This document shows positions 38,569 through 51,268 of a stretch of 64,000 nucleotides of DNA, one piece after another; position 1 is the stretch's first letter, and each line of letters opens with the position of its first letter. The notes under the pieces were generated by a model, which searched no databases, was not told the DNA's origin, and was given only the letters and a program-made list of their open reading frames with translations. Source of the DNA: Leucothrix mucor DSM 2157 (lineage in GTDB: Bacteria; Pseudomonadota; Gammaproteobacteria; Thiotrichales; Thiotrichaceae); the NCBI RefSeq assembly GCF_000419525.1, contig NZ_ATTE01000001.1, positions 3,383,501-3,447,500 of the forward strand. Reading direction: 5' to 3'. The position numbers were made by a program, and so were the translations under genes.

Positions 38569-39402
38569 ATGAAAACCATCGCAGCCAATGACAGACAGCC
38601 TGCCACTAGCCAAGCGCACTTGGATACTAAATCTGCAGGTGGTTCGCGCGTGATGGACTCACTCTGCAACAGCGTCACCCTTAGCCTGATAGAAGCGCCT
38701 TGGTGGATTGCAATGCTAACGCTGGTCTTCTCCGGCCCACTGGCCAACTACCTCGGCCAAGCCTCCATTTACCTGATTGCCGGCGCCGTCGTGTCGATGA
38801 CAATTGTTAGCTTTTTTAGCTCATGGAAAGGCGTGATCTGGATTCCTCAGGACGTACCGACCGCCATCATTGTGTTAATCACCGGCAAAATGCTCAGCGA
38901 CATGCCAGACACCATCAGCATGGACAGCCAATTCGCCACCGTAATCATCGCCATCGGCAGCGTGCAATGGTCGCTGATCTTCGCGCAGATGCCTCACATG
39001 CTGATATTAGTCGCGGCATCGGTGGTCTCTATGCTGCTCAATAACAGCGGATTTGAACTGTATGTAGGTGGCAAGTTTGACCATGATAAAGATTTGCGCA
39101 CGACCGGTATTGCTAATTTATTGGCAGGATTGGTCGGCGGCTGGCCTGGCTATATGTCTCCGGCCTGGTCATCGCTGAACACGAAACAAGGCCGCCAGCT
39201 GCCATTCACGGGGATTCTTGTGGCGGTGTTGAGTGGGCTGATTTTATGGTGTGCTTCGGACTTTCTGGCGTATATACCACGCTTTGTGATTGGCTCGGCA
39301 GTGGCTTATGTGGGGGTGTGTTTTTTGTTTGATTGGGTGATTAGGCCTGCTAAGCGCTTGTCTTGGGGTGAGTTTGCGGGGTTGGTTGGGTTTGGGGTTT
39401 GA
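38569..39402 (+). pseudogene. SulP-type anion transporter with internal deletion, C-terminally truncated
   Basis: This 277-residue membrane protein reads as SulP/SLC26 in two separate parts. N-terminal helices (SLIEAPWWIAMLTLVFSGPL, then KGVIWIPQDVPTAI) match the first four segments. It then jumps straight from TVIIAIGS to WSLIFAQMPHMLILVAASVV, NNSGFEL and GLVGGWPGYMSPAWSSLNTK, which normally lie some 170 residues later. It stops after LSWGEFAGLVGFGV, before the last helices and the STAS domain. The frame is open and the promoter intact, so a short protein may still be made, but transport is unlikely. Confidence 0.6.
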
Positions 39403-39524: not shown

Positions 39525-40337
39525 CTAGTAACAACGAGCAAGCCGGAAACCATAGTTATCGTAGCGAACAACAGGTTGCCCATTGTCGCGGCAAGCAGAA
39601 CGGCAGTACCTGCCATAGTAGAACCACGAGCCACCGCGCAATACACGGTCGACTCCTACTTCTGACCCAATAGGGTCTGTTGCGATTTTATCTGGATAAA
39701 GGCCATACCAATCCTGACACCACTCCCAAACATTGCCGTGCATTTGCCATAATCCCCAGTCGTTCTGATAAAACGACTCGACATCGACCGTATCATGTCG
39801 AAATTCACTTCTTCTGCCGTTGTTGTAAGGCTCTGTTCCATTAAAATTGACGAGTTCTGAATTAATCTGTTCACCCCAACAAAATGGCGTAGTACTTCCT
39901 GCCCGACAAGCATATTCCCATTGCGCTTCTGTCGGAAGGCATAATTTTAGCTCTGGTTTCATATGGTTCATTTTACTGATGAACTCTTGTGCATCATTCC
40001 AACTAACGTTGTCTACTGGGCGGTTTTCTCCTTTAAAGCGACTGGGACTCTCACCCATAACCGCCCCCCAAAGACCCTGAGTAACAGCAGTGTCAGCAAT
40101 CCAAAAGCCTTTACTAAAAATCACTTCATACTGAGTTTCATTATCACTCCGCTCTGGCTCATCCTTCGGAGAACCCATCAAAAACGTCCCTGACTCACAC
40201 CAACGAAATTGCTGCCGCGTCCCTTTATAAGTAAATGCCATCCAAAGGCCAAACTCATCCTCACCCCAGCCTGAGGCCCAGCTTTCGGGAAATTCATCAG
40301 GGTAGGCTTTGTGCCGACGGGTGTAAGCTTTTGTCAT
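39525..40337 (-). CDS. FGE-sulfatase (SUMF1/C-lectin-like) domain protein, last gene of ternary operon
   Basis: This 270-residue single-domain protein follows the formylglycine-generating-enzyme fold: QFRWCESGTFLMGSPKDEP, PVDNVSWNDAQEFISKM, LCLPTEAQWEYACRAGS, LWQMHGNVWEWCQDWYG and VLRGGSWFYYGRYCRSA. In true FGE the active-site motif is GGSFLC...YC. Here the first Cys is replaced by Tyr, so oxidase activity is unlikely and a binding role is suggested. The last 40 residues are rich in Tyr, Asp, Asn, Arg at positions that vary between paralogues. It overlaps the upstream vWA-FGE gene by 4 bp. Confidence 0.85.
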   Translation of the reverse strand: MTKAYTRRHKAYPDEFPESWASGWGEDEFGLWMAFTYKGTRQQFRWCESGTFLMGSPKDEPERSDNETQYEVIFSKGFWIADTAVTQGLWGAVMGESPSRFKGENRPVDNVSWNDAQEFISKMNHMKPELKLCLPTEAQWEYACRAGSTTPFCWGEQINSELVNFNGTEPYNNGRRSEFRHDTVDVESFYQNDWGLWQMHGNVWEWCQDWYGLYPDKIATDPIGSEVGVDRVLRGGSWFYYGRYCRSACRDNGQPVVRYDNYGFRLARCY

Positions 40338-43300
40338 TTCATTCTCCCAGTCGCAAGACTGCCGATCTTCTGTTGTCCCATCCGGATAGAGCGGACCGGC
40401 GATTGACCATGATCTCGGGCAAGCCGAAAGCCAATGCTATAGTCGCGATGATTAGGATGGCGATAGCGACGATACGCGGAACGACAGAACCTGCCTAAGT
40501 CGATCCACGAGCCGCCCCGCAGCACACGGAGACCTTCTGACTCCCGCCCTTGCGGGTCAATTACAGAACCCTCCGGATACTCGCCATACCAATCTTCGCA
40601 CCATTCGACAACATTACCGTGCATCTCGTATAACCCCCATTGGTTGGCAGGATAACTTTTAACCGGAAGTATTTTTCCGGCGGAATCAGATCCAGGGTTG
40701 GAATCATTCCACTTACCCGAATAGTTAACTTTATTTAGATCCAATTCATCCTCAACACCAAAATAGAAAGGTGTTTCTGTGCCTGCACGACAGGCATTTT
40801 CCCATTCGGCTTCGGTGGGTAAGCGTAAGCCTAGCTCTGGCTGCTTCTGGTTAATAAGTTGGAGAAAGTTTTGAACATCCTCCCAACTGACTTGCTCTAC
40901 GGGATTGGCTTTATCTTTGGATTTGCTGGGATTATCACCAGTAACAGCCTGCCAGAGTTGTTGAGTACAAGTAGTTTCGGCAAGCCAATAACCTTGGCTC
41001 AGGGTGACTTGGCGTTGAACTTCACGATCTGATAATCGCCCTTTCTCATATTCAGGAGACCCCATTTGGAAGGTGGTCGGCTCTATCCAACGGAAGCGTT
41101 GGGTAATTCCAGCGATTTCGGCTTCTACTGCAACCCCATACTCATCGTAATAACACTCAGCAGCCCAATCTGGAGTCCAACCGGAGTACCTAGGTGAAAA
41201 AAACCAGACTCCACGAGTGCTATTAACCTTATGAGAGGTCAACTTTGGCTCCGATGACTCGGGCAATACAGCCTCGGACCAACTCTTCCACTTAATATAG
41301 TTCGGCGAATGCCAATACCAACGGTAAATACTCCCTTCACGAGACTCAGACTCAACAGAAAAGCCATTTTCATCAACGCTAACCACTGAGCGCATCCAAG
41401 GCTCTTTTCGTTGTTGTGCGGTACTAACATCCACGGTGATTAGTTCTCTGCCAATCTGAAACTGATGCTCTCTAGCACTACTAAAACCAAACCCTTTTTT
41501 AATTTTACTCAGATTCAGGCTAACCACTTTCTGATTCCCATGCCGATCTGTATTCACATGAAATATCCGCTCATCATCCAGAGTCATATTGAGCAGCAAA
41601 GCACCAGCGTGAGCATGATTGCCCCAATCATCTTCGGGTTCTGTTTTTTTCGTTACCTCACCATCCTTTGATTTTAATACCAGCTTCTCTCCTTGTTGCC
41701 ATAACTCATATTCACGGAAGGTTTTTGCATGATTGATATAACGGCTGATCTCTGCAATTTCGTCTTCCGTTAAATAATCCGGGTACTCACTTTCCGCTGC
41801 ACCTGTTCGCCGCTCCTCATGCAAATGAGAGAACGCCATAAACGCTAACCAAAAATCGTATTGCCCACGTAATTCCTTAGCTTGGTTTCGTAACAGATGG
41901 CGCTTCACCCAGCTATCCAGCAAGCCATGATCAGGATGCTCAGCGTAGGTTTTTACTAAGTCTTGCATATAGCGTTCGGTTGCTTGACTGACAACTTCAG
42001 GCACCATGCCTGATAGTTTTCCAGTGTTATCCAATCCTTCCAATAACATCAGATTGTGCATGGCTTCAAAGTACAACTCATCTGGCAACATCGCATGATA
42101 GCGTCCAATTAGCTCGACAAGCTTTGCCCGTTTTTTAACATCCAATTGTTGGAACAGTTTGAGTGCTTTTTCCTGATGATTTTCTCTGCTATTCGCCTGC
42201 CAACCCCACTCATCTCCCTCATAAACCGTATCGCGGTGCTGCCAAATGGCCACCTCATGCCCGATATCAAATGCGTTAAACAGGTAACGCGTTGCCCGTA
42301 GCAGGCCAGCATCAACCCGAAGCGTTGCAAAGAAATAACTGAGTAAATCATCAATACTTTCTGAATGATCAAGCTTATCTTTTTCTGCCTGATAACCCCC
42401 CTTCACGCGCTTTAGGTCACTACTACCATCCCAGATAAAACAATCAAAATAGCGCAATAAACGTTTATCTATGTCGCGCTCTGCCGCGGGCATCAGTACC
42501 ATCGGGCGCACACCCTGAGCGTTTAACAACTGCCCAAAGACCAACCAACCATAGAGGGCGCTCCGTGTGTTTGAGTGCATCCCCAAGTCACTCAGAATAA
42601 GAAGAAGGGTTGTGTGTTTAGGAGCTGACCAAGGCTCGATAAATTCACGGCATTGCTCATAACGGACAACATAACCACCGGGCTCATCATGGATGTACTG
42701 GAGTTCTAACCCTTCTGTGCCTCGTGCCTGTATAAGCTTGTCACGTAAATGGAGGAAATCGCTGCGATAGGGAAAGTTGTCTTCGTTAATATCAATCAGC
42801 ACCCTAACTTTTGTAGACCAGCTACGTCGCTGTTTACGGGGTATCCGATCAAAAGGTTTACCACTGGCAACCTGCTTAACTAACTGTTGCTCATCTACCT
42901 GCATACCTGAAACATTGGCACCTAGTATCTTTTTGAGAAATGGTTCGAGGCGTGACCAGCGGGTTAATTCAGTGTGGAGTGGTATGACGCGATGACAAGA
43001 TGGAATCCGTGTTTTGGTTTCATCCAAGATAGTGGCGCTTGCTTGTGTAAACCAATCAGGCAATTGGTCAATGTCACTCGCATCAGAAGCCGATTGTTGT
43101 TCGTTTATTTTTCGATTACTGACACGATAATAGGCGGCGTTTTTTGACGGGCTTTCTTCTATTGGCAGACTCTGTTCAGGAGTCTCTTCACCAATAAGAT
43201 CTTGATCTAGATTTTTCAGTATGCGGCCATCAGCCCTATCGAGGGATTCTTGCGTACTGTCTTGAGCGGGCGTCTTTTCAAGCTCAAAACCTAAAGATAC

Positions 43301-43402
43301 CGCCAACTCATCGCGGGCCTGTTCATCTACCGACGAGGTATATAATCCCCACAACAAATCAGCCCGACTGAATCCATTCCGGCCCTGCCCCTCATTCGTC
43401 AT
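40334..43402 (-). CDS. vWA-like protein fused to C-terminal FGE-like domain (ternary conflict system)
   Basis: This 1,022-residue protein has, from about residue 198, a degenerate vWA-like domain. The strand VRVLIDINEDN sits where DxSxS would be, followed by HTTLLLILSDLGMHSNTRSA and VRPMVLMPAAE. A helical middle and a beta-rich region (residues about 380-720) follow, then an FGE-like domain (residues about 730-985: FRWIEPTTFQMGSPEYEKGR, QVSWEDVQNFLQL, LRLPTEAEWENACRAGTE, EMHGNVVEWCEDWYG, RGGSWIDLGRFCRSA). The first catalytic Cys of FGE is replaced by Asp. It overlaps the MoxR gene by 11 bp. Confidence 0.78.
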   Translation of the reverse strand: MTNEGQGRNGFSRADLLWGLYTSSVDEQARDELAVSLGFELEKTPAQDSTQESLDRADGRILKNLDQDLIGEETPEQSLPIEESPSKNAAYYRVSNRKINEQQSASDASDIDQLPDWFTQASATILDETKTRIPSCHRVIPLHTELTRWSRLEPFLKKILGANVSGMQVDEQQLVKQVASGKPFDRIPRKQRRSWSTKVRVLIDINEDNFPYRSDFLHLRDKLIQARGTEGLELQYIHDEPGGYVVRYEQCREFIEPWSAPKHTTLLLILSDLGMHSNTRSALYGWLVFGQLLNAQGVRPMVLMPAAERDIDKRLLRYFDCFIWDGSSDLKRVKGGYQAEKDKLDHSESIDDLLSYFFATLRVDAGLLRATRYLFNAFDIGHEVAIWQHRDTVYEGDEWGWQANSRENHQEKALKLFQQLDVKKRAKLVELIGRYHAMLPDELYFEAMHNLMLLEGLDNTGKLSGMVPEVVSQATERYMQDLVKTYAEHPDHGLLDSWVKRHLLRNQAKELRGQYDFWLAFMAFSHLHEERRTGAAESEYPDYLTEDEIAEISRYINHAKTFREYELWQQGEKLVLKSKDGEVTKKTEPEDDWGNHAHAGALLLNMTLDDERIFHVNTDRHGNQKVVSLNLSKIKKGFGFSSAREHQFQIGRELITVDVSTAQQRKEPWMRSVVSVDENGFSVESESREGSIYRWYWHSPNYIKWKSWSEAVLPESSEPKLTSHKVNSTRGVWFFSPRYSGWTPDWAAECYYDEYGVAVEAEIAGITQRFRWIEPTTFQMGSPEYEKGRLSDREVQRQVTLSQGYWLAETTCTQQLWQAVTGDNPSKSKDKANPVEQVSWEDVQNFLQLINQKQPELGLRLPTEAEWENACRAGTETPFYFGVEDELDLNKVNYSGKWNDSNPGSDSAGKILPVKSYPANQWGLYEMHGNVVEWCEDWYGEYPEGSVIDPQGRESEGLRVLRGGSWIDLGRFCRSAYRRYRHPNHRDYSIGFRLARDHGQSPVRSIRMGQQKIGSLATGRMK

Positions 43403-44423
43403 GCATCACCGGATATTTGCGCATAACAAATTTTTTGATCTCTTCAAGCATTTCTAATTGCTTGTCTTGATCATTTCCACCGAGCACCGTCAAAGCGCGT
43501 AGCATGTCCAGATACTCCGCTTGTCCCGGAGGGGTTACGCCTTTTTCCTTTGCCAAATTACGGTCAGTAACTAATTGCTCTGCTGCTTTTTGCAGTATCA
43601 CATCGCCACATTGCTTGAAGTGAAGCTTGCCTCTTTGTTTTAACAAAGTGATCAACTCATCATCATCTTTTGGAAGATTGAGATTCAGCACCAAACAACG
43701 ACGGACAAAAGCCGGTGGTAGCTCTCGCTCTTCATTCGTCGTGATTATGACCAATGGCGGTACACTGTCTTTGCCACCGATGGTTTTATCCAACCACGGA
43801 ATCTGGATGGCATTATTTCCCAAAATTTCCAACAGGCTATTTGGCAGTTCAGCATTGGCTTTGTCGATTTCATCGATAAGGATTACGCTGCCGTGTTCTT
43901 GCTCCCACCCCTTAGGCTTTTCAGGACTAGTTAGCTGGTATTGGCTGTCGTTGTAAGTTTTTGATGCAGATTTCCAGCACAGCGCCCACCAGAGAACGGC
44001 TGGAGAAATATAACGTTTTGTATCCAGAGCCTCCTTTCGTGCTTCTTCGCTCGTACCTGCCTGTAGCGTTTGTGCTTCTGCCAAGCGCCCTACTGCATCG
44101 AACTTCCAAAGCAAGTCCTGTCCTTCGGTATGAGAGTTGACTACTTCGTAAACGAATAGACGGTTTAGTGCGACTGCGGCAGCGTGGGCTAACTGGCTTT
44201 TACCTGTTCCAGGTTCTCCACGAAGGAGCACTGGGCGGCGTGCAGCTAAGGCAGTTTTTAGTACGTTGATACTGTCTTTATCAAATTGGTGGACTGAGGC
44301 TGACCATGAGCCGTAAGCGGGCAGTGGGAGTTGGCCGTTGTTTCCAAGCTCATCGAGTTCGGCAATATCACCCAGTAGCTTTTCGTTCAGTTTCTCTGGC
44401 AATTGTTGTGTCATATGCATCAA
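43392..44423 (-). CDS. MoxR-type AAA+ ATPase of ternary conflict system
   Basis: This 343-residue AAA+ ATPase has Walker A LLRGEPGTGKSQLAH near residue 70, Walker B VILIDEIDKANAELPNSLLE near 178, sensor 1 in PLVIITTNEERELPP and an arginine finger in AFVRRCLVLNL. It belongs to the MoxR/AAA_5-like group. MoxR proteins commonly work with vWA proteins as chaperone-like switches, and here the vWA-like gene follows with overlap. The upstream trypsin-like gene overlaps by 56 bp. Tight packing suggests stoichiometric expression. Confidence 0.87.
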   Translation of the reverse strand: MMHMTQQLPEKLNEKLLGDIAELDELGNNGQLPLPAYGSWSASVHQFDKDSINVLKTALAARRPVLLRGEPGTGKSQLAHAAAVALNRLFVYEVVNSHTEGQDLLWKFDAVGRLAEAQTLQAGTSEEARKEALDTKRYISPAVLWWALCWKSASKTYNDSQYQLTSPEKPKGWEQEHGSVILIDEIDKANAELPNSLLEILGNNAIQIPWLDKTIGGKDSVPPLVIITTNEERELPPAFVRRCLVLNLNLPKDDDELITLLKQRGKLHFKQCGDVILQKAAEQLVTDRNLAKEKGVTPPGQAEYLDMLRALTVLGGNDQDKQLEMLEEIKKFVMRKYPVMHDE

Positions 44424-46008
44424 CCTTCTCGTAAAAATTATGCAGCTCTATCATCAAATCATAGTCTGAAGTTATGTAAGCTCCGGATTGCATCGCTTTG
44501 TCTAATACGATGATGGGTAACTCGGGGAATATTTCAGTAAAAGCCTGACGATGTTTTTTATCCAATAACGGAGACTCATTTTTATCTCGTGGATTAACAG
44601 AAACCACTAGGTAGCAATTCTTTTTTTCAGGGTTATCTGCGACTAACTCTCGTCGGATATAATTACGCAAATATTCTCTGCTATATTCATCTGGAGAATA
44701 ACGGGGGAAGAAAACACGCCATACTTCTTTCCCAACTTCATCTATCCAGCCATCCTGAAAACCTACTTCCAAGTCGAAGTGCGATACGGCATATTTTCCT
44801 TGTACCATCGGCTTGCTTTTGTGCCTTCGGTAGCTGGGCACTGACTGCATTCTTGCCGCTGAAGCTAGTTCAGCGCAACCAGGTAAATCGTGGGACATAC
44901 GGATATTTAATGTTCCTGAAGTATGTTTAACCCCATCCCGTAATGCTTTGGCAGACTTCTTTTCCAATGAATACAGCGACAGCATAGAAACCAGTCGTTT
45001 AGCATCATCAAGTAATATTTTAGCTGGCCTATACTTTTCAGCACGTTCTAAGGATTTCAACTCACGAGACACAGAGGTGGTAAAATTTCTTAGTAGTTTT
45101 CCAATGTCCTCACGCGTTGTCTCTATAATCAGATGCAATAAATCAGCTTCGATTTGATCTTCCTTCCAGCGCTGCTTTCTTGACCAGTCTTTAAGCAGAG
45201 ATGCTGGCAGCCCTTCCAATAGGCCCTCTAAGTCAAATTTAATATCATCCCAAAATACCTCATCATCAATCTGCTTGAACTCACCATATTGAGCCCTATG
45301 TTTCAGCAATGCTTCTTTGTGTGTTTCGCAGGCATCAACGACTTTGTACATAGGCGTCATATAGACTTTTTTGTACTTAAAGTTTTGTGCGCGCTCACCT
45401 CTCTGACTAATCAGCATACCGATTATTGCCTGTTCATCGTCACTCCAAACAGGTGCACCACTGGCTCCACCAATGGTTTCGTCAATACTTAAATCCAGCT
45501 CGATTAATCCATCAGCACATACAGATTTACTTTCACCCTCGAGAAGGCTTCCCTTCTCAATATGAAAGCCTTTGCATTTCACTTTATGGTCGGCATAAAA
45601 CTCGTGATTGGTTTCATACTTCCAAGTAGACGCCAATGCTTCTGTTTTATTTAAATCCAAAGCTATCAAGGGCTTCAGACTTAGCACCGCGATATCAAAA
45701 ATATCGTTCAGCCCCGCTTGCTTGTCATGTGGGCAGCTGGTTACCAATTCTGCCGTAAACAATTTCCCACACAAATCCTTATTAAAAGGAAAATCAATCA
45801 CTAGTGTTTTTAGTAACCCAGCATCTACAGTATCTGTAGAGCTTTTACCAGAAATACAACTAGTTACCACGTGATTACACGTCACCAACCAAGGGTAGTT
45901 CGTAACAAAACCTGTACCAACCAACTTTCCTCTTTCCGGTTGATCAGCACCTTCTTTGAAACTAGCGAGACTAACCCTTGCTAGCCATTTATTCAGATTT
46001 TCCGACAT
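44368..46008 (-). CDS. Trypsin-like serine protease with large C-terminal domain (ternary system)
   Basis: This 546-residue protein has an N-terminal trypsin-like domain. The catalytic triad reads His46 in VTCNHVV, Asp105 in IFDIAVLSL and Ser183 in GGASGAPVW, all intact. Residues about 215-546 form an uncharacterised region, first helical (LLEGLPASLLKDW, KLLRNFTTSVS), then with a beta-rich end holding VWRVFFPRYSPDE and CYLVVSVNPRDKN. There is no signal peptide, so the protease is cytoplasmic, as in the conflict systems where it is thought to be activated by the MoxR/vWA partners. It overlaps the Trypco1-like gene by 20 bp. Confidence 0.83.
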   Translation of the reverse strand: MSENLNKWLARVSLASFKEGADQPERGKLVGTGFVTNYPWLVTCNHVVTSCISGKSSTDTVDAGLLKTLVIDFPFNKDLCGKLFTAELVTSCPHDKQAGLNDIFDIAVLSLKPLIALDLNKTEALASTWKYETNHEFYADHKVKCKGFHIEKGSLLEGESKSVCADGLIELDLSIDETIGGASGAPVWSDDEQAIIGMLISQRGERAQNFKYKKVYMTPMYKVVDACETHKEALLKHRAQYGEFKQIDDEVFWDDIKFDLEGLLEGLPASLLKDWSRKQRWKEDQIEADLLHLIIETTREDIGKLLRNFTTSVSRELKSLERAEKYRPAKILLDDAKRLVSMLSLYSLEKKSAKALRDGVKHTSGTLNIRMSHDLPGCAELASAARMQSVPSYRRHKSKPMVQGKYAVSHFDLEVGFQDGWIDEVGKEVWRVFFPRYSPDEYSREYLRNYIRRELVADNPEKKNCYLVVSVNPRDKNESPLLDKKHRQAFTEIFPELPIIVLDKAMQSGAYITSDYDLMIELHNFYEKVDAYDTTIARETERKATG

Positions 46009-46327
46009 TCTGAGCTTTTCTCTGCCATTTTAGTTTTATGACCATAGTCGCTTCACTATCTACTGACGCTAGAATTACACCAGCTTTTGCGCCAAGTTTA
46101 ACACCCATTTCTATTTCAACTTCTGAAGGATCGCTTAGATCTTTGAGCATGCCTAGAACTGATTTAGCAACAGGCTTTATGCCTTGAATAGCCTTTTCAA
46201 ATTTACCACCATCAATGGGTTCATCGCTTCCATTGCTAATTTCTTCATCAACATCAGATCCGGTAGACTCAGCTTCTACATAGACTTTTTCGCCTTCAAT
46301 CTCGTATACAACATACTGTTTTGACAT
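45989..46327 (-). CDS. Trypco1-like (CU044_2847 family) small protein
   Basis: This 112-residue protein has, in its second half, the pattern KFEKAIQGIKPVAKSVLGML, then VEIEMGVKLGAKAGVILASV and EATMVIKLKWQRK. This matches the trypsin-co-occurring domain 1 (Trypco1) found in CU044_2847 family proteins. The first half (YVVYEIEGEKVYVEAEST) is a short beta-rich region followed by an acidic stretch. Trypco1 proteins occur next to trypsin-like proteases in conflict systems and probably regulate them. It overlaps the protease gene by 20 bp. Confidence 0.78.
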   Translation of the reverse strand: MSKQYVVYEIEGEKVYVEAESTGSDVDEEISNGSDEPIDGGKFEKAIQGIKPVAKSVLGMLKDLSDPSEVEIEMGVKLGAKAGVILASVDSEATMVIKLKWQRKAQNVGKSE

Positions 46328-46376
46328 AACTTTTTCGATCCTTTAATTAAATAACTATGATAAACGTATTACAGAA

Positions 46377-47186
46377 TTAGCACTCACGGATAAGCCGGAA
46401 TCCGATAGTATCTGATCTAGTCTGAGGGGGTCGGCTAGCACGAAAAGCTGAGCGACATTGCCAGCCACCAGTGAACCACGAACCACCACGTATTAATTTC
46501 CCTTCACTCTTTGCCGACATTAGTGGGGATTTTTTTGGCAATCTCAAATAGTCACCGTACCAATCTTGGCACCATTCACTCACATTCCCATGCATTTGCC
46601 ATAGGCCCCAATCATTTTGGTGAAACGATTTAACATCTACCGTATGTTCTCGGTATTCGCTTATTTCGCCTCCTTTATACGGATAGGTGCCCTCAAAATT
46701 AACCAAATCAGAGTTAATCTGCTCACCCCAACAAAAAGGTGTTTTACTACCTGCTCGACAGGCATATTCCCATTCAGCTTCAGTCGGTAATCGAAGCTTT
46801 AGTTCAGACTTCATATCATTCATTTTGACAATGAATTCTTGGGCGTCATTCCAACTGACGTTCTCAACCGGACGGCTTTCACCTTGAAAACGGCTAGGAT
46901 TATTATTTACTACTTCCATCCAAAGCGCTTGAGTCACAGTAGTATCAGCAATCCAGAATCCTTTGCTTAGGATAACGTTATGCAGTGATTCGTCAGGCCT
47001 CCTATACGTTTCTTTTTGTGGCGACCCCATCAAAAACTCTCCTGGTTCACACCAACGGAATTTCTGCTGTATACCTTTATAAGTAAACGCCATCCACAGG
47101 CCAAACTCATCCTCACCCCAACCGGAAGCCCAGCTTTCAGGGAATTCGTCAGGGTAAATTTTGTGTTGGCGGATGTAGGATTCCAT
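46377..47186 (-). CDS. FGE-sulfatase-like domain protein, first gene of ternary operon
   Basis: This 269-residue paralogue of the protein at 39525-40337 shares near-identical blocks (YPDEFPESWASGWGEDEFGL, then WMAFTYKG; SKGFWIADT; NDWGLWQMHGNV). The active-site region reads IRGGSWFTGGWQCRSAFRAS: the second Cys is kept but the first is Thr. Its C-terminal 40 residues differ most from the other copy. It lies only 49 bp before the Trypco1-like gene in the same orientation, so it is probably the promoter-proximal gene of the six-gene operon. Confidence 0.83.
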   Translation of the reverse strand: MESYIRQHKIYPDEFPESWASGWGEDEFGLWMAFTYKGIQQKFRWCEPGEFLMGSPQKETYRRPDESLHNVILSKGFWIADTTVTQALWMEVVNNNPSRFQGESRPVENVSWNDAQEFIVKMNDMKSELKLRLPTEAEWEYACRAGSKTPFCWGEQINSDLVNFEGTYPYKGGEISEYREHTVDVKSFHQNDWGLWQMHGNVSEWCQDWYGDYLRLPKKSPLMSAKSEGKLIRGGSWFTGGWQCRSAFRASRPPQTRSDTIGFRLIREC

Positions 47187-47281
47187 GGAGTTTCGGCTAC
47201 TTAGACTAGATGCTCAGAATCATAGCACAAGCAACTCCAGTCACTAGTTGGTTTGTCTAATTCCAATCACTAACGTAACCT

Positions 47282-47308
47282 TTACCGACCCCTTACCACT
47301 TCCTTATG
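47282..47308 (+). promoter_or_regulatory. TTACC direct-repeat boxes, cassette 1
   Basis: TTACC at 47282 and 47293 and TTATG at 47304 are exactly 11 bp apart and are followed by ACTGATTTTCAGC. This is an OmpR-type activator site pattern, shared with cassettes 2 and 3 and with the SulP promoter. Confidence 0.6.
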
Positions 47309-47389
47309 ACTGATTTTCAGCTGGCCGCTAATCTACACCCATCGCTACACAATATAGCGGCCACCAATCAAAACCCAGAGGATACGACC

Positions 47390-47764
47390 ATGAAAAACGC
47401 AACTATTATCACAACAACCATCGCCACATTATTAAGCACCGTTATGTTATCTGGAAATGCCGCTGCCGCTCAGCAGTGTGCCGCACGAGTGACCGTCGGC
47501 GGCGTGGCAGCAGCAGGCGCATTTGCCGGAGCCAGAGAACGACGCGCTACTCGTCGCGCCAAGCGGGCTTGGGAAGCTTATATTACCGGTCAGTCTGGCC
47601 CATCGATTCTGTCAAGCTTCACCAGCACCAACCATTCTTCTTTCGGCTTAGGTTCTCGCTTTGCTGATTTGGATAACGCGAAGAATGTGGTGGTTAACTG
47701 TAAAGGTGAAGGCCGAGGCTTAACGCGTTGCACAGTAACGGCGACGCCTTGTACTAAGAAATAA
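47390..47764 (+). CDS. Small secreted cationic Cys-containing protein, copy 1
   Basis: This 124-residue protein has a signal peptide (MKNATIITTTIATLLSTVML, cleavage likely after NAAAA). The mature part of about 97 residues starts QQCAARVTVGGVAAAGAFAG, has an arginine-rich patch (ARERRATRRAKRAW) and ends with Cys in NCKGEG, TRCTVTA and TPCTKK. Four cysteines suggest two disulfides. I recognise no family. ATG at 47390 follows AGAGGA. The GGVAAAGAFAGA stretch may insert into or span a membrane. Paralogues at 48277 and 50840 differ by only a few residues. Confidence 0.75.
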   Translation: MKNATIITTTIATLLSTVMLSGNAAAAQQCAARVTVGGVAAAGAFAGARERRATRRAKRAWEAYITGQSGPSILSSFTSTNHSSFGLGSRFADLDNAKNVVVNCKGEGRGLTRCTVTATPCTKK

Positions 47765-47788
47765 TTTCCGTACCCCGCTTGATCATTC

Positions 47789-47812
47789 AGCCCGCTTCAA
47801 TAGCGGGCTTTC
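47789..47812 (+). terminator. Terminator of cassette 1
   Basis: AGCCCGCT (47789-47796) and AGCGGGCT (47802-47809) pair with a 5-nt loop, followed by TTC only. The stem is strong and the T-tract short; the same element ends each cassette. Confidence 0.75.
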
Positions 47813-47855
47813 CTGTATTTGGGGGATCATTGACAGTGCTTGGAGCTACGACAAA

Positions 47856-48089: not shown

Positions 48090-48169
48090 ATTTATACTCC
48101 GCAAAATACCTACCCATCAAGACCATGCAACCTTAACAAGCTCATTCAACTTACCCCAAACCTCAACCT

Positions 48170-48196
48170 TTACCAAACCCTTACCACTTCCTTATG
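48170..48196 (+). promoter_or_regulatory. TTACC direct-repeat boxes, cassette 2
   Basis: TTACC at 48170 and 48181 and TTATG at 48192, exactly 11 bp apart. Sequence is nearly the same as in cassettes 1 and 3. Confidence 0.6.
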
Positions 48197-48276
48197 ACTG
48201 ATTTTCAGCTGGCCGCTAATCTACACCCATCGCTAAACAATATAGCGGCCACTAATCAAACTCAGAGGATACGACC

Positions 48277-48648
48277 ATGAAAAACGCAACCATCATCACA
48301 ATGACTATCGCCACTTTACTAAGCACTGTTATGTTATCTGGAACTGCCGCTGCCGCTCAGCAGTGTGCAGCACGGGTTAGCGTCGGCGGCGTGGCAGCAG
48401 CAGGTGCATTTGCCGGAGCCAGAGAACGACGTGCTACTCGCCGCGCTAAGCGAGCTTGGGAAGCTTATATCACTGGCCAGTCTGGCCCATCGATTTTGTC
48501 GAGCTTCACCAGCACCAACCATTCTTCTTTCGGCTTGGGTTCACGCTTTGCTGATCTGGATAACGCTAAGAATGTGGTGGTTAACTGTAAAGGTGAGGGC
48601 CGTGGTTTAACGCGTTGCACAGTAACGGCGACGCCTTGTACTAAGTAA
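48277..48648 (+). CDS. Small secreted cationic Cys-containing protein, copy 2
   Basis: This 123-residue paralogue of the protein at 47390 has the signal MKNATIITMTIATLLSTVML and a mature region of the same design. It carries the cluster RERRATRRAKRAWEAY and the terminal TPCTK, one Lys shorter. Differences are few (for example SVGGVAAAG for TVGGVAAAG). The unit is followed by the AbiE operator and genes. Conservation of promoter and terminator suggests that all copies are expressed. Confidence 0.75.
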   Translation: MKNATIITMTIATLLSTVMLSGTAAAAQQCAARVSVGGVAAAGAFAGARERRATRRAKRAWEAYITGQSGPSILSSFTSTNHSSFGLGSRFADLDNAKNVVVNCKGEGRGLTRCTVTATPCTK

Positions 48649-48672
48649 GTTTCGTACTTTGCTTGATCACTC

Positions 48673-48696
48673 AGCCCGCTAATACAGCGGGCTTTC
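48673..48696 (+). terminator. Terminator of cassette 2
   Basis: AGCCCGCT (48673-48680) and AGCGGGCT (48686-48693) with a 5-nt loop, followed by TTC. Confidence 0.75.
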
Positions 48697-48756
48697 CTAT
48701 GTTTGGCCACTTAGTGTATTGCCTGCAAAATAAATACTTTTAGCGGGAGCATTCGT

Positions 48757-48829: not shown

Positions 48830-49891
48830 ATGTACGAAAATGCTTTCTTAGACAAAGTCCTACAGGCGCTTAAAGATAACACTGGCATTACGTCGGAGCT
48901 GCTAGGTGCGGCTAATACACCATACAGTGCTGCGCATCATGACCACGCCATCAGTCTAAGTAAGGGCGATGTGACACAAGCATTCCTTGTTGATATCAAA
49001 CGGCGGCCATCAGTATCGCAACTAACGTTATTACTGAGTAATGATAAAAGCAATTTGGGAGTCCGAAACGATAACAGTGAATGGCACTACAGCGCTAAAA
49101 CGCTGTTAGTCGCTGACTACGTAAATCCTAAGCTTTCACAGTTTTTAAAAGACAATGGCTGTAATTTTGTCGACAGTGCTGGTAATGCCTACCTGAACTT
49201 TGGCTCGGTTTTTGTTTATATAACAGGAAACAAAGCACCAGAAGTACTTACTGAAACAAAGCCCTCAAGAGCATTTCAAAGTACCGGCTTGAAGCTGATA
49301 TTTGCGCTGCTTTGCCATCCCGAAAATATCATTAACCGCAGTTACCGAGACCTGAGTGAAATCAGTGGTGTTTCATTAGGCTCTATCGGTCGGATTATTA
49401 ATGATCTGAAAGCCGCAGGATATCTCTCATCAGGAGAGAATGACCAGCGCAATTGGGCAGATAAAGACGGCCTGATAAAGCGCTGGGTTGTCGCGTATGC
49501 TGAAAATCTCAGACCTAAGCTTGTATTGGGCTACTACAAGTCACTTCAGGAAAACTGGCAGGAAGCGGTTGATATCCAATCTTATGGCGCGTTGTGGGGC
49601 GGTGAAATCGCTGCAGATCATTTAACACGCTATCTTAAGCCCGAGTTTTCTACAATTTATACCCAAGAGAAGCTTGGCAAACTCGTACTAATGAACGGCT
49701 TAAAAGAGGTTCCTGAAAAAAGTAGCGCAAATGTAGAAGTGCTTCAGAAGTTTTGGCATTTTGACAATCCTCAGAATCCGGGCTTGGCCCCTACACTGCT
49801 GGTCTATGCTGATCTGATCGCTTCAGGAAATTCCAGAAATATTGAAACTGCAAACATCATTTATCAGGAGTTTTTAAATGTCAGTGAATAG
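48830..49891 (+). CDS. abiEi: AbiEi-type antitoxin/repressor (type IV TA)
   Basis: This 353-residue protein has a winged HTH in its centre (YRDLSEISGVSLGSIGRIIN, then DLKAAGYLSSG) and a C-terminal AbiEi-like domain (WGGEIAADHLTRYLKPEF). The N-terminal 130 residues (from FLVDIKRRPSVSQLTLLL) resemble the restriction-like fold seen in larger AbiEi relatives. In type IV systems AbiEi represses its operon and blocks AbiEii indirectly. The downstream toxin starts inside its 3' end (14-bp overlap). The nested inverted repeats before it support autoregulation. Confidence 0.82.
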   Translation: MYENAFLDKVLQALKDNTGITSELLGAANTPYSAAHHDHAISLSKGDVTQAFLVDIKRRPSVSQLTLLLSNDKSNLGVRNDNSEWHYSAKTLLVADYVNPKLSQFLKDNGCNFVDSAGNAYLNFGSVFVYITGNKAPEVLTETKPSRAFQSTGLKLIFALLCHPENIINRSYRDLSEISGVSLGSIGRIINDLKAAGYLSSGENDQRNWADKDGLIKRWVVAYAENLRPKLVLGYYKSLQENWQEAVDIQSYGALWGGEIAADHLTRYLKPEFSTIYTQEKLGKLVLMNGLKEVPEKSSANVEVLQKFWHFDNPQNPGLAPTLLVYADLIASGNSRNIETANIIYQEFLNVSE

Positions 49892-50717
49892 TCGTCTGAG
49901 CCCTGACTGGCTGGCAGCGTTGAGCATTATAAAAACTCAGGCCGATAGTCTTGGGATTCCGTTTATGGTCATTGGCGCTTCGGCGAGAGATATACTGCTC
50001 AATTTGTGGAGTATCTCACCAACTCGTGCCACCAGAGATGTTGATTTAGCGATAGAAATCGCAAGCTGGGGGCGCTTTGAGGAATTAAGAAACGCTCTCG
50101 TTGCCACAGGATCTTTTCAATCTAACAATCAACTGCAAAGGCTTACTTTCGAAGGCCATCTACCAATTGATCTGGTGCCTTATGGTGCTATCGAGCGCTC
50201 AAACTCGGAAATATCCTGGCCACCAGATCATGCTGTTCTCATGTCAGTTGCGGGAATGAAAGATGCCTTTGATTCATCGTTAACGCTGCCACTTTCTGAA
50301 TCACCTAACCCGCTGGAAATACATGTCGCTTCTGCTGCTGGTATAGCGTTACTCAAGCTGATTGCATGGGAAGATCGTAAATTGAGTACAACCAAGGATG
50401 CAGAGGATCTGTATTTTCTCCTGCGTCATTACATCGACCTTGGTAATCAGAATCACTTGCAGAGCGATCATGAGGATTTGTTTGAGGACTTTGATAGTGC
50501 GCATGCACGCTTACTTGGTAGAGATCTTTTGGAGATTTGTAGCTCTGAGACTTTGCTTGCTGTTAAGTCAATTTTAGATAGAGAAACGGCTTCCTCAAAT
50601 GAATCGATACTTGTACGAGATATGCTGCCCAGACGCGCGGAATCCGACCAAATTTCACTTTGTAGAAAATGGCTGACGGCCATGTGGGCAGAGATGTTTG
50701 AGATGGACACCTTCTAA
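49878..50717 (+). CDS. abiEii: AbiEii-like nucleotidyltransferase toxin
   Basis: This 279-residue protein has the minimal nucleotidyltransferase core: MVIGASARDILLNLW carries the GxS-like motif, and TRDVDLAIEI the DxD motif that binds metal. LPIDLVPYG gives the third acidic strand and LLKLIAWEDR the usual lysine-rich helix. AbiEii toxins pyrophosphorylate or nucleotidylate targets such as tRNA 3' ends and arrest growth. The gene overlaps abiEi by 14 bp, as in AbiE loci. Similar proteins outside TA pairs exist, but the AbiEi partner makes this call good. Confidence 0.82.
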   Translation: MSVNSRLSPDWLAALSIIKTQADSLGIPFMVIGASARDILLNLWSISPTRATRDVDLAIEIASWGRFEELRNALVATGSFQSNNQLQRLTFEGHLPIDLVPYGAIERSNSEISWPPDHAVLMSVAGMKDAFDSSLTLPLSESPNPLEIHVASAAGIALLKLIAWEDRKLSTTKDAEDLYFLLRHYIDLGNQNHLQSDHEDLFEDFDSAHARLLGRDLLEICSSETLLAVKSILDRETASSNESILVRDMLPRRAESDQISLCRKWLTAMWAEMFEMDTF

Positions 50718-50732
50718 TCCAAAACTCAACCT

Positions 50733-50759
50733 TTACCAAACCCTTACCACTTCCTTATG
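50733..50759 (+). promoter_or_regulatory. TTACC direct-repeat boxes, cassette 3
   Basis: TTACC at 50733 and 50744 and TTATG at 50755, exactly 11 bp apart; same pattern as cassettes 1 and 2. Confidence 0.6.
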
Positions 50760-50839
50760 ACTGATTTTCGGCTGGCCGCTAATCTACACCCATCGCTACA
50801 CAATATAGCGGCCACTAATCAAACTCAGAGGATACGACC

Positions 50840-51214
50840 ATGAAAAACGCAACCATCATCACAATGACCATCGCCACGTTATTAAGCACTGTAATGTTAT
50901 CTGGAAATGCCGCTGCCGCTCAGCAGTGTGCCGCACGAGTGACCGTCGGCGGCGTGGCAGCAGCAGGTGCATTTGCCGGAGCCAGAGAGCGACGCGCTAC
51001 TCGCCGCGCCAAGCGAGCCTGGGAAGCTTATATCACTGGTCAGTCTGGCCCGTCGATTCTGTCAAGCTTCACTAGCACCAACCATTCTTCTTTCGGCTTA
51101 GGTTCTCGCTTTGCTGATCTGGATAACGCGAAGAATGTGGTGGTTAACTGTAAAGGTGAAGGCCGTGGCTTAACGCGTTGCACGGTAACGGCGACGCCTT
51201 GCACTAAGAAATAA
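50840..51214 (+). CDS. Small secreted cationic Cys-containing protein, copy 3
   Basis: This 124-residue paralogue has the signal MKNATIITMTIATLLSTVML and then the same mature region as copy 1, including the RERRATRRAKRAW patch, four Cys and the TPCTKK end. Protein identity to copies 1 and 2 is almost complete, while synonymous sites differ. That argues for selection on the protein or for gene conversion. Function unknown; the cationic secreted character suggests a surface or antimicrobial role, which is speculation. Confidence 0.75.
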   Translation: MKNATIITMTIATLLSTVMLSGNAAAAQQCAARVTVGGVAAAGAFAGARERRATRRAKRAWEAYITGQSGPSILSSFTSTNHSSFGLGSRFADLDNAKNVVVNCKGEGRGLTRCTVTATPCTKK

Positions 51215-51238
51215 TTCCCGTACCCCGCTTGATCACTC

Positions 51239-51262
51239 AGCCCGCTTAGATAGCGGGCTTTC
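51239..51262 (+). terminator. Terminator of cassette 3
   Basis: AGCCCGCT (51239-51246) and AGCGGGCT (51252-51259) pair around a 5-nt loop, then TTTC. Confidence 0.75.
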
Positions 51263-51268
51263 TTGTGC

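Follow-up and report, generated by a model that had tools for sequence, protein, structure and literature searches.

A putative MoxR-centred sensor-switch-protease module of Leucothrix mucor whose C-type-lectin domains look like DGR products in a genome without DGR RT or template

Conflict systems combining MoxR, vWA and C-type-lectin (CLec) domains have been predicted across multicellular bacteria, and an experimental test of any MoxR-vWA-CLec system was not found in the open-access papers searched. Among the described systems, RT clade 5A of Dore et al. (2024; PMC10907252) associates MoxR with a target protein consisting of an N-extension and a CLec domain, a short CLec-only target, and Trypco together with trypsin or TIR. 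In addition, VMAP ternary conflict systems were predicted by Kaur et al. (2020; PMC7159879). An earlier note on the DNA studied here regarded its arrangement with three proteins resembling the formylglycine-generating enzyme (FGE) as not experimentally described; the arrangement had already been described computationally (Dore et al. 2024, PMC10907252).

Here, we analysed a window of 64,000 nt from Leucothrix mucor DSM 2157 (GCF_000419525.1, NZ_ATTE01000001.1, positions 3,383,501-3,447,500, forward strand), and positions given without a locus name are those of this window. The ORF listing of 39525-47186 contains six intact ORFs on the minus strand (Table 1), which confirms the six same-strand genes, five of them overlapping, that the earlier note had reported in this order and at these coordinates. 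The first CLec gene is separated from the Trypco1 gene by 49 bp, while the following genes overlap by 20 bp (Trypco1/trypsin), 56 bp (trypsin/MoxR with the MoxR TTG at 44423, or 47 bp if the start is the ATG at 44414), 11 bp (MoxR/1022-aa gene) and 4 bp (1022-aa gene/last CLec gene). Promoter and terminator scans gave results at or below chance. The operon is not a chance grouping, since MoxR lies directly upstream of the N-extension gene in 20/20 relative loci read out, and the six-gene order recurs in L066 and L038 (described below).

Table 1. Coordinates of the operon, its variable regions and its flanks in the window.
Feature	Position	Strand	Evidence
CLec/FGE-like sensor 1, 269 aa	46377..47186	-	FGE-sulfatase 1.1e-49
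Trypco1 protein, 112 aa	45989..46327	-	PF19493 8.5e-21
Trypsin-like protease, 546 aa, C-terminal adaptor domain	44368..46008	-	Trypsin_2 1.2e-5; DegS Z 14.7; triad
MoxR-type AAA+ ATPase, 343 aa from TTG	43392..44423	-	AAA_5 1.7e-15, bpMoxR 5e-6
1022-aa protein, N-extension and C-terminal CLec/FGE-like sensor 2	40334..43402	-	FGE-sulfatase 4.4e-41
CLec/FGE-like sensor 3, 270 aa	39525..40337	-	FGE-sulfatase 1.3e-45
Variable region of sensor 1	46395-46490		NNC 1/9, most decayed
Variable region of sensor 2	40424-40519		NNC 7/9
Variable region of sensor 3	39543-39638		NNC 6/9
Direct repeats of ~540 bp	47277-47816, 48156-48706, 50719-51266		91-94% identical
AbiEi/AbiEii pair	48830-50717		
Sulfate permease-like ORF	38569-39402		168-360 of 380 profile positions

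The Trypsin_2 match of the 546-aa protein lies slightly under the Pfam cut-off. In the predicted structure, residues 1-233 form a trypsin fold that matches DegS, and the triad H46/D105/S183 is present; fold and His-Asp-Ser triad are those of an S1 protease. All structural matches are confined to residues 1-233, and none reports on the fold of the C-terminal adaptor domain; one homologue gives a weak NCAB1 match (0.002). The N-terminus of the protease resembles LmuA of Lamassu (1.2e-8). In MoxR, the AAA_5 match is accompanied by a bpMoxR match below the Pfam cut-off, and the motifs GEPGTGKS (Walker A) and LIDEID (Walker B) are conserved in the 20-row alignment. The components named in the earlier note are upheld: the trypsin-like protease with intact His46/Asp105/Ser183 by its triad and DegS-like predicted fold, the Trypco1-like protein by its profile match, the MoxR AAA+ ATPase by AAA_5 and the conserved Walker motifs, and the three FGE-like domains by Pfam FGE-sulfatase in all three proteins.

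The 1022-aa protein had been read as a vWA-like/FGE-like fusion. Its FGE part is upheld, whereas the Pfam profile search sees this C-terminal domain only and gives no direct vWA match. The N-extension has a good core in the predicted structure, of which residues ~195-332 match vWA domains with Z about 8; since HPRT chains score nearly as high (Z 7-7.8), the structural match by itself is not decisive for a vWA fold. Indirect support comes from the Foldseek search with the N-extension, in which rank 4 (E 0.021) is taken by NorD, the protein that partners the MoxR protein NorQ and carries the vWA of this pair. Furthermore, other genomes encode shorter standalone homologues immediately downstream of MoxR that can be aligned to this core, and one of them (L088) matches VWA_CoxE (0.0019). 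In a profile-profile alignment with genuine CoxE proteins (hhalign), the first MIDAS motif falls on DINED and the later Asp motif on SDLG, at a probability of 14.5%. Residues ~195-332 are thus likely, though not proven, to be a diverged vWA domain without DxSxS.

The sensor sequence also matches FGE structures 6muj and 2q17 (6.8e-25). The first FGE catalytic Cys is replaced by Tyr, Thr and Asp in the three copies, with the second Cys kept, and FGE enzyme activity was rejected on the ground that one of the two catalytic cysteines is missing. NCBIfam equivalog matches to PvdO, GldK and EgtB, all far below their cut-offs, reflect the fold only and were likewise set aside. When compared with the template repeat of locus L055, the three variable regions match at 0.60-0.78 of the non-A positions and at 0.25-0.46 of the A positions, and among the three copies codon positions 1 and 2 differ at 46/72 template-A sites versus 14/120 others. 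Between window copies, 16-17/17 framework residues and 0-2/14 variable residues are identical, while the remaining CLec domain is only 47-67% identical. Because a milder contrast of this kind (0.67 vs 0.23) is also seen in unrelated FGE genes from this genome, the third base is the more specific DGR sign. C occupies the third base at 13/18 template-AAC codons of the fused and last copies, compared with 17-19% C elsewhere in the genes (P about 7e-7, somewhat optimistic because it was computed on the two clearer copies), and at 14/27 over all three copies (P 7e-5). The adenine-directed pattern is clear in two of the three copies and decayed in the first, which is without the third-base signature. 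CLec copies adjoining an RT keep NNC 9/9, and several RT-less relative loci keep 8-9/9. Judged from these patterns, the FGE-like modules look like DGR-type C-type-lectin variable proteins, and their variable regions look like DGR products starting to decay at synonymous sites. The role as recognition modules proposed in the earlier note is kept as the likely one, with the identity corrected from FGE-like to DGR-type variable proteins.

The genome, with a completeness of 100% in two contigs, contains no RT by PF00078 or by a DGR RT query. A genome search with the RGGSW-coding pattern finds gene copies only and no template repeat. An active DGR in the Leucothrix mucor genome was therefore rejected, and the DGR-type nature of the modules in a genome without DGR RT or template is new here.

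A search for the N-extension over 144 related genomes yielded 27 places in 19 genomes, window included; by tblastn, no match was obtained on plasmids or phages. With few exceptions, the N-extension genes of the 20 loci read out end in a CLec/FGE domain, and in most cases they are followed by free CLec genes. The protein upstream of MoxR carries trypsin in 16/21 and TIR in 5/21 aligned members, either of them joined to a common C-terminal domain in the all-against-all comparison; this domain of the window protease matches the L036 TIR protein (4e-13) and is shared by TIR effectors elsewhere. Trypsin loci commonly contain Trypco1 or Trypco2. Neighbours on the MoxR tree differ in effector: the window and L066 (trypsin) versus L036 (TIR), L037 (TIR) versus L038 (trypsin), and L044 (trypsin) versus L050 (TIR). 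Since trypsin and TIR are swapped upstream of a constant MoxR/vWA-like/CLec set, the upstream protein would be the effector carrier and the rest sensor and switch. This swap, which is new here, favours a reading from sequence in which CLec senses and the protease executes, and the earlier proposal of trypsin as the effector gains support from TIR replacing it in sister loci.

Two TIR loci encode a small protein upstream of the TIR gene (L036:4124-4576 and a similar 162-aa ORF at L051:3070-3558); the two proteins contain a hydrophobic stretch and share the motif KHMDMYQGIITRMA.NSA. They have no Pfam match and are possibly a TIR counterpart of Trypco. At L054:6114-9044, a MoxR-linked N-extension protein carries a uracil-DNA glycosylase (2.2e-14) in place of CLec, a reminder that the CLec position of the fused protein can hold effector-like domains.

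In L046, L053 and L055, the region between the two CLec targets contains an RT together with a template repeat carrying AAC runs, which is the clade 5A arrangement of Dore et al.; L071, L072, L074 and L075 are also RT-bearing. Loci with an RT are dispersed over the MoxR tree, and a single clade of RT-less loci was rejected. By eye, the RT-less gap between CLec targets is often occupied by a pair of small genes resembling toxin-antitoxin systems or by a small ORF resembling an endonuclease (L041, L050, L054, L042, L047, L048). L036 carries a run of five consecutive CLec domains with no RT adjoining.

The closest copy found, L066, belongs to a Nitrosomonas MAG, a betaproteobacterium, and reproduces all six genes and their order, with identities to the window of 71% (MoxR), 52% (fused protein), 51% (trypsin) and 56% (Trypco1). 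No RT was found in this genome either, an absence that is weaker for a MAG. A RAYT-like transposase ORF was noted by eye before its last CLec gene (L066:11204-11734). In L038, from another genus of the host family, the order is again CLec, Trypco1, trypsin, MoxR, N-extension-CLec and CLec. The recurrence of the six-gene order in the RT-less Nitrosomonas MAG and in another genus of the host family is new here. The same-genus genome G003 holds distant copies only (<=28% identity). The simplest reading of these comparisons is horizontal movement of the module.

Beyond the first CLec gene, three direct repeats (Table 1) each contain a small gene whose product, 123-152 aa long and of no known family, is probably secreted. 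The AbiEi/AbiEii pair, a type IV toxin-antitoxin and abortive infection system, lies between two of these repeats, beside the operon. At the 3' flank, the sulfate permease-like ORF is short at both ends, a possible scar of a past insertion.

Combined, the operon is on balance probably a MoxR-centred defence module of the kind described by Dore et al., built of sensor, switch and protease, in which the DGR has been lost. Its context points to defence through the adjoining AbiEi/AbiEii pair and the LmuA-like protease N-terminus. What the sequences show directly is the linkage and content of the operon, catalytic residues that are intact, the exchange of effectors among relatives, variable regions of DGR type, and a genome with neither DGR RT nor template. 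From sequence and predicted structure, we infer ligand binding, switching, protease activation and defence as follows. One of the three C-type-lectin sensors, two free and one fused to the vWA-like arm, would use its variable face to bind an invader component. Binding would be converted by the vWA-like arm together with the MoxR ring into a remodelling of the complex driven by ATP. This remodelling would activate the trypsin-like protease, with guidance from Trypco1 and from the C-terminal adaptor domain of the protease itself. The activated protease may then cleave proteins and stop the infected cell. Such a mechanism would be nearer to the alternative model of Dore et al. (PMC10907252) than to that of Kaur et al. 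(PMC7159879). With the DGR lost, the sensor repertoire would be fixed, changing by ordinary mutation, duplication and transfer. A more tentative idea, possible rather than probable, is that after DGR loss the six-gene module was kept, its CLec sensors multiplied (three in the window, three in Nitrosomonas, five in G007, numbers small for ascribing the increase to DGR loss) and it was passed between bacterial classes, a fixed receptor set replacing targeted hypermutation.

The two absences in the genome bear on a different history, in which the DGR would still act in trans, its RT and template being located in other strains or on a replicon that the assembly lacks. Trans-acting DGRs are known, several RT-less relative loci keep a nearly full third-base signature, and the two clearer window copies have a fairly fresh one. 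We nevertheless regard this as highly improbable, given a complete two-contig genome with neither RT nor template, a Nitrosomonas copy that also has no RT, and synonymous decay in all three copies. A role outside defence, with the MoxR/vWA-like chaperone pair and a regulatory protease maturing or degrading a host complex, would resemble most studied MoxR-vWA pairs, such as CoxD-CoxE and NorQ-NorD, which act on a host complex; NorD is also a structural match of the N-extension. The patchy distribution (19/144 related genomes), a closest copy in a betaproteobacterium, effector swapping, hypervariable faces and a locus with no constant client gene make this role improbable.

The effector swap in turn weighs against the logic proposed for VMAP systems (PMC7159879). 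There, the triggered protease protein would be the regulator, cleaving the vWA-like protein and freeing CLec as an effector that acts by containment or dominant-negative binding. The uracil-DNA glycosylase at the CLec position of L054 fits such a scheme. However, trypsin is repeatedly exchanged for TIR, a killer-type domain, while MoxR, the vWA-like part and CLec stay; CLec is the hypervariable part, which suits sensors, and the free CLec genes require no cleavage. We therefore consider this logic unlikely.

The interest of the locus lies in the frozen-repertoire reading and the clean effector-swap series rather than in the operon as the earlier note had framed it. The operon is compact, and since its sensors would be stable without a DGR, a defined sequence could serve to assay the ligand, switch and protease steps. 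Within one bacterial family, sister loci with RT, without RT and with TIR and trypsin swapped could show what hypermutation contributes to an immune receptor and what its loss entails.

In comparison with known systems, the window modules share fold and overall sequence with formylglycine-generating enzyme, in contrast to which they keep the second catalytic Cys only. With NorQ-NorD and CoxD-CoxE, the operon shares an AAA+ MoxR with a probable vWA partner; these pairs are without protease, Trypco and CLec, and the vWA homology is weak. The C-type-lectin/FGE fold with the framework RGGSW...C..GFRLA is that of Treponema denticola TvpA (2y3c) and other DGR variable proteins. However, TvpA has an active DGR, whereas the window modules are fused to or stand beside a MoxR-protease system.

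With the VMAP systems of Kaur et al. (PMC7159879), which have no DGR, the operon shares MoxR, the order of peptidase protein, MoxR and (vWA) protein, trypsin with Trypco1, and an FGE/FGS domain on the last protein. Unlike them, it is without VMAP-C, and its vWA-like part has neither DxSxS nor a profile match. A search of the genome for VMAP-C (PF20028) found nothing at E <= 10, none of 21 homologues matched the domain, and a canonical VMAP ternary system was rejected. Of the trypsin-MoxR-vWA ternary conflict system claimed in the earlier note, a MoxR-centred predicted conflict system with Trypco1 and trypsin remains, and the canonical ternary set does not. The clade 5A loci of Dore et al. (Thiohalocapsa PB-PSB1 DGR 8, also DGR 9) agree with the window in MoxR directly upstream of a long N-extension target with C-terminal CLec, in the short CLec-only target, and in adjacent Trypco1/2 and trypsin or TIR. 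In contrast to these loci, the window genome is without RT and template, three CLec modules are present, one of them upstream of Trypco1, and the N-extension is read as a diverged vWA. The operon would work most like the clade 5A systems and is best called a DGR-less relative of them; strictly speaking, it is no DGR locus.
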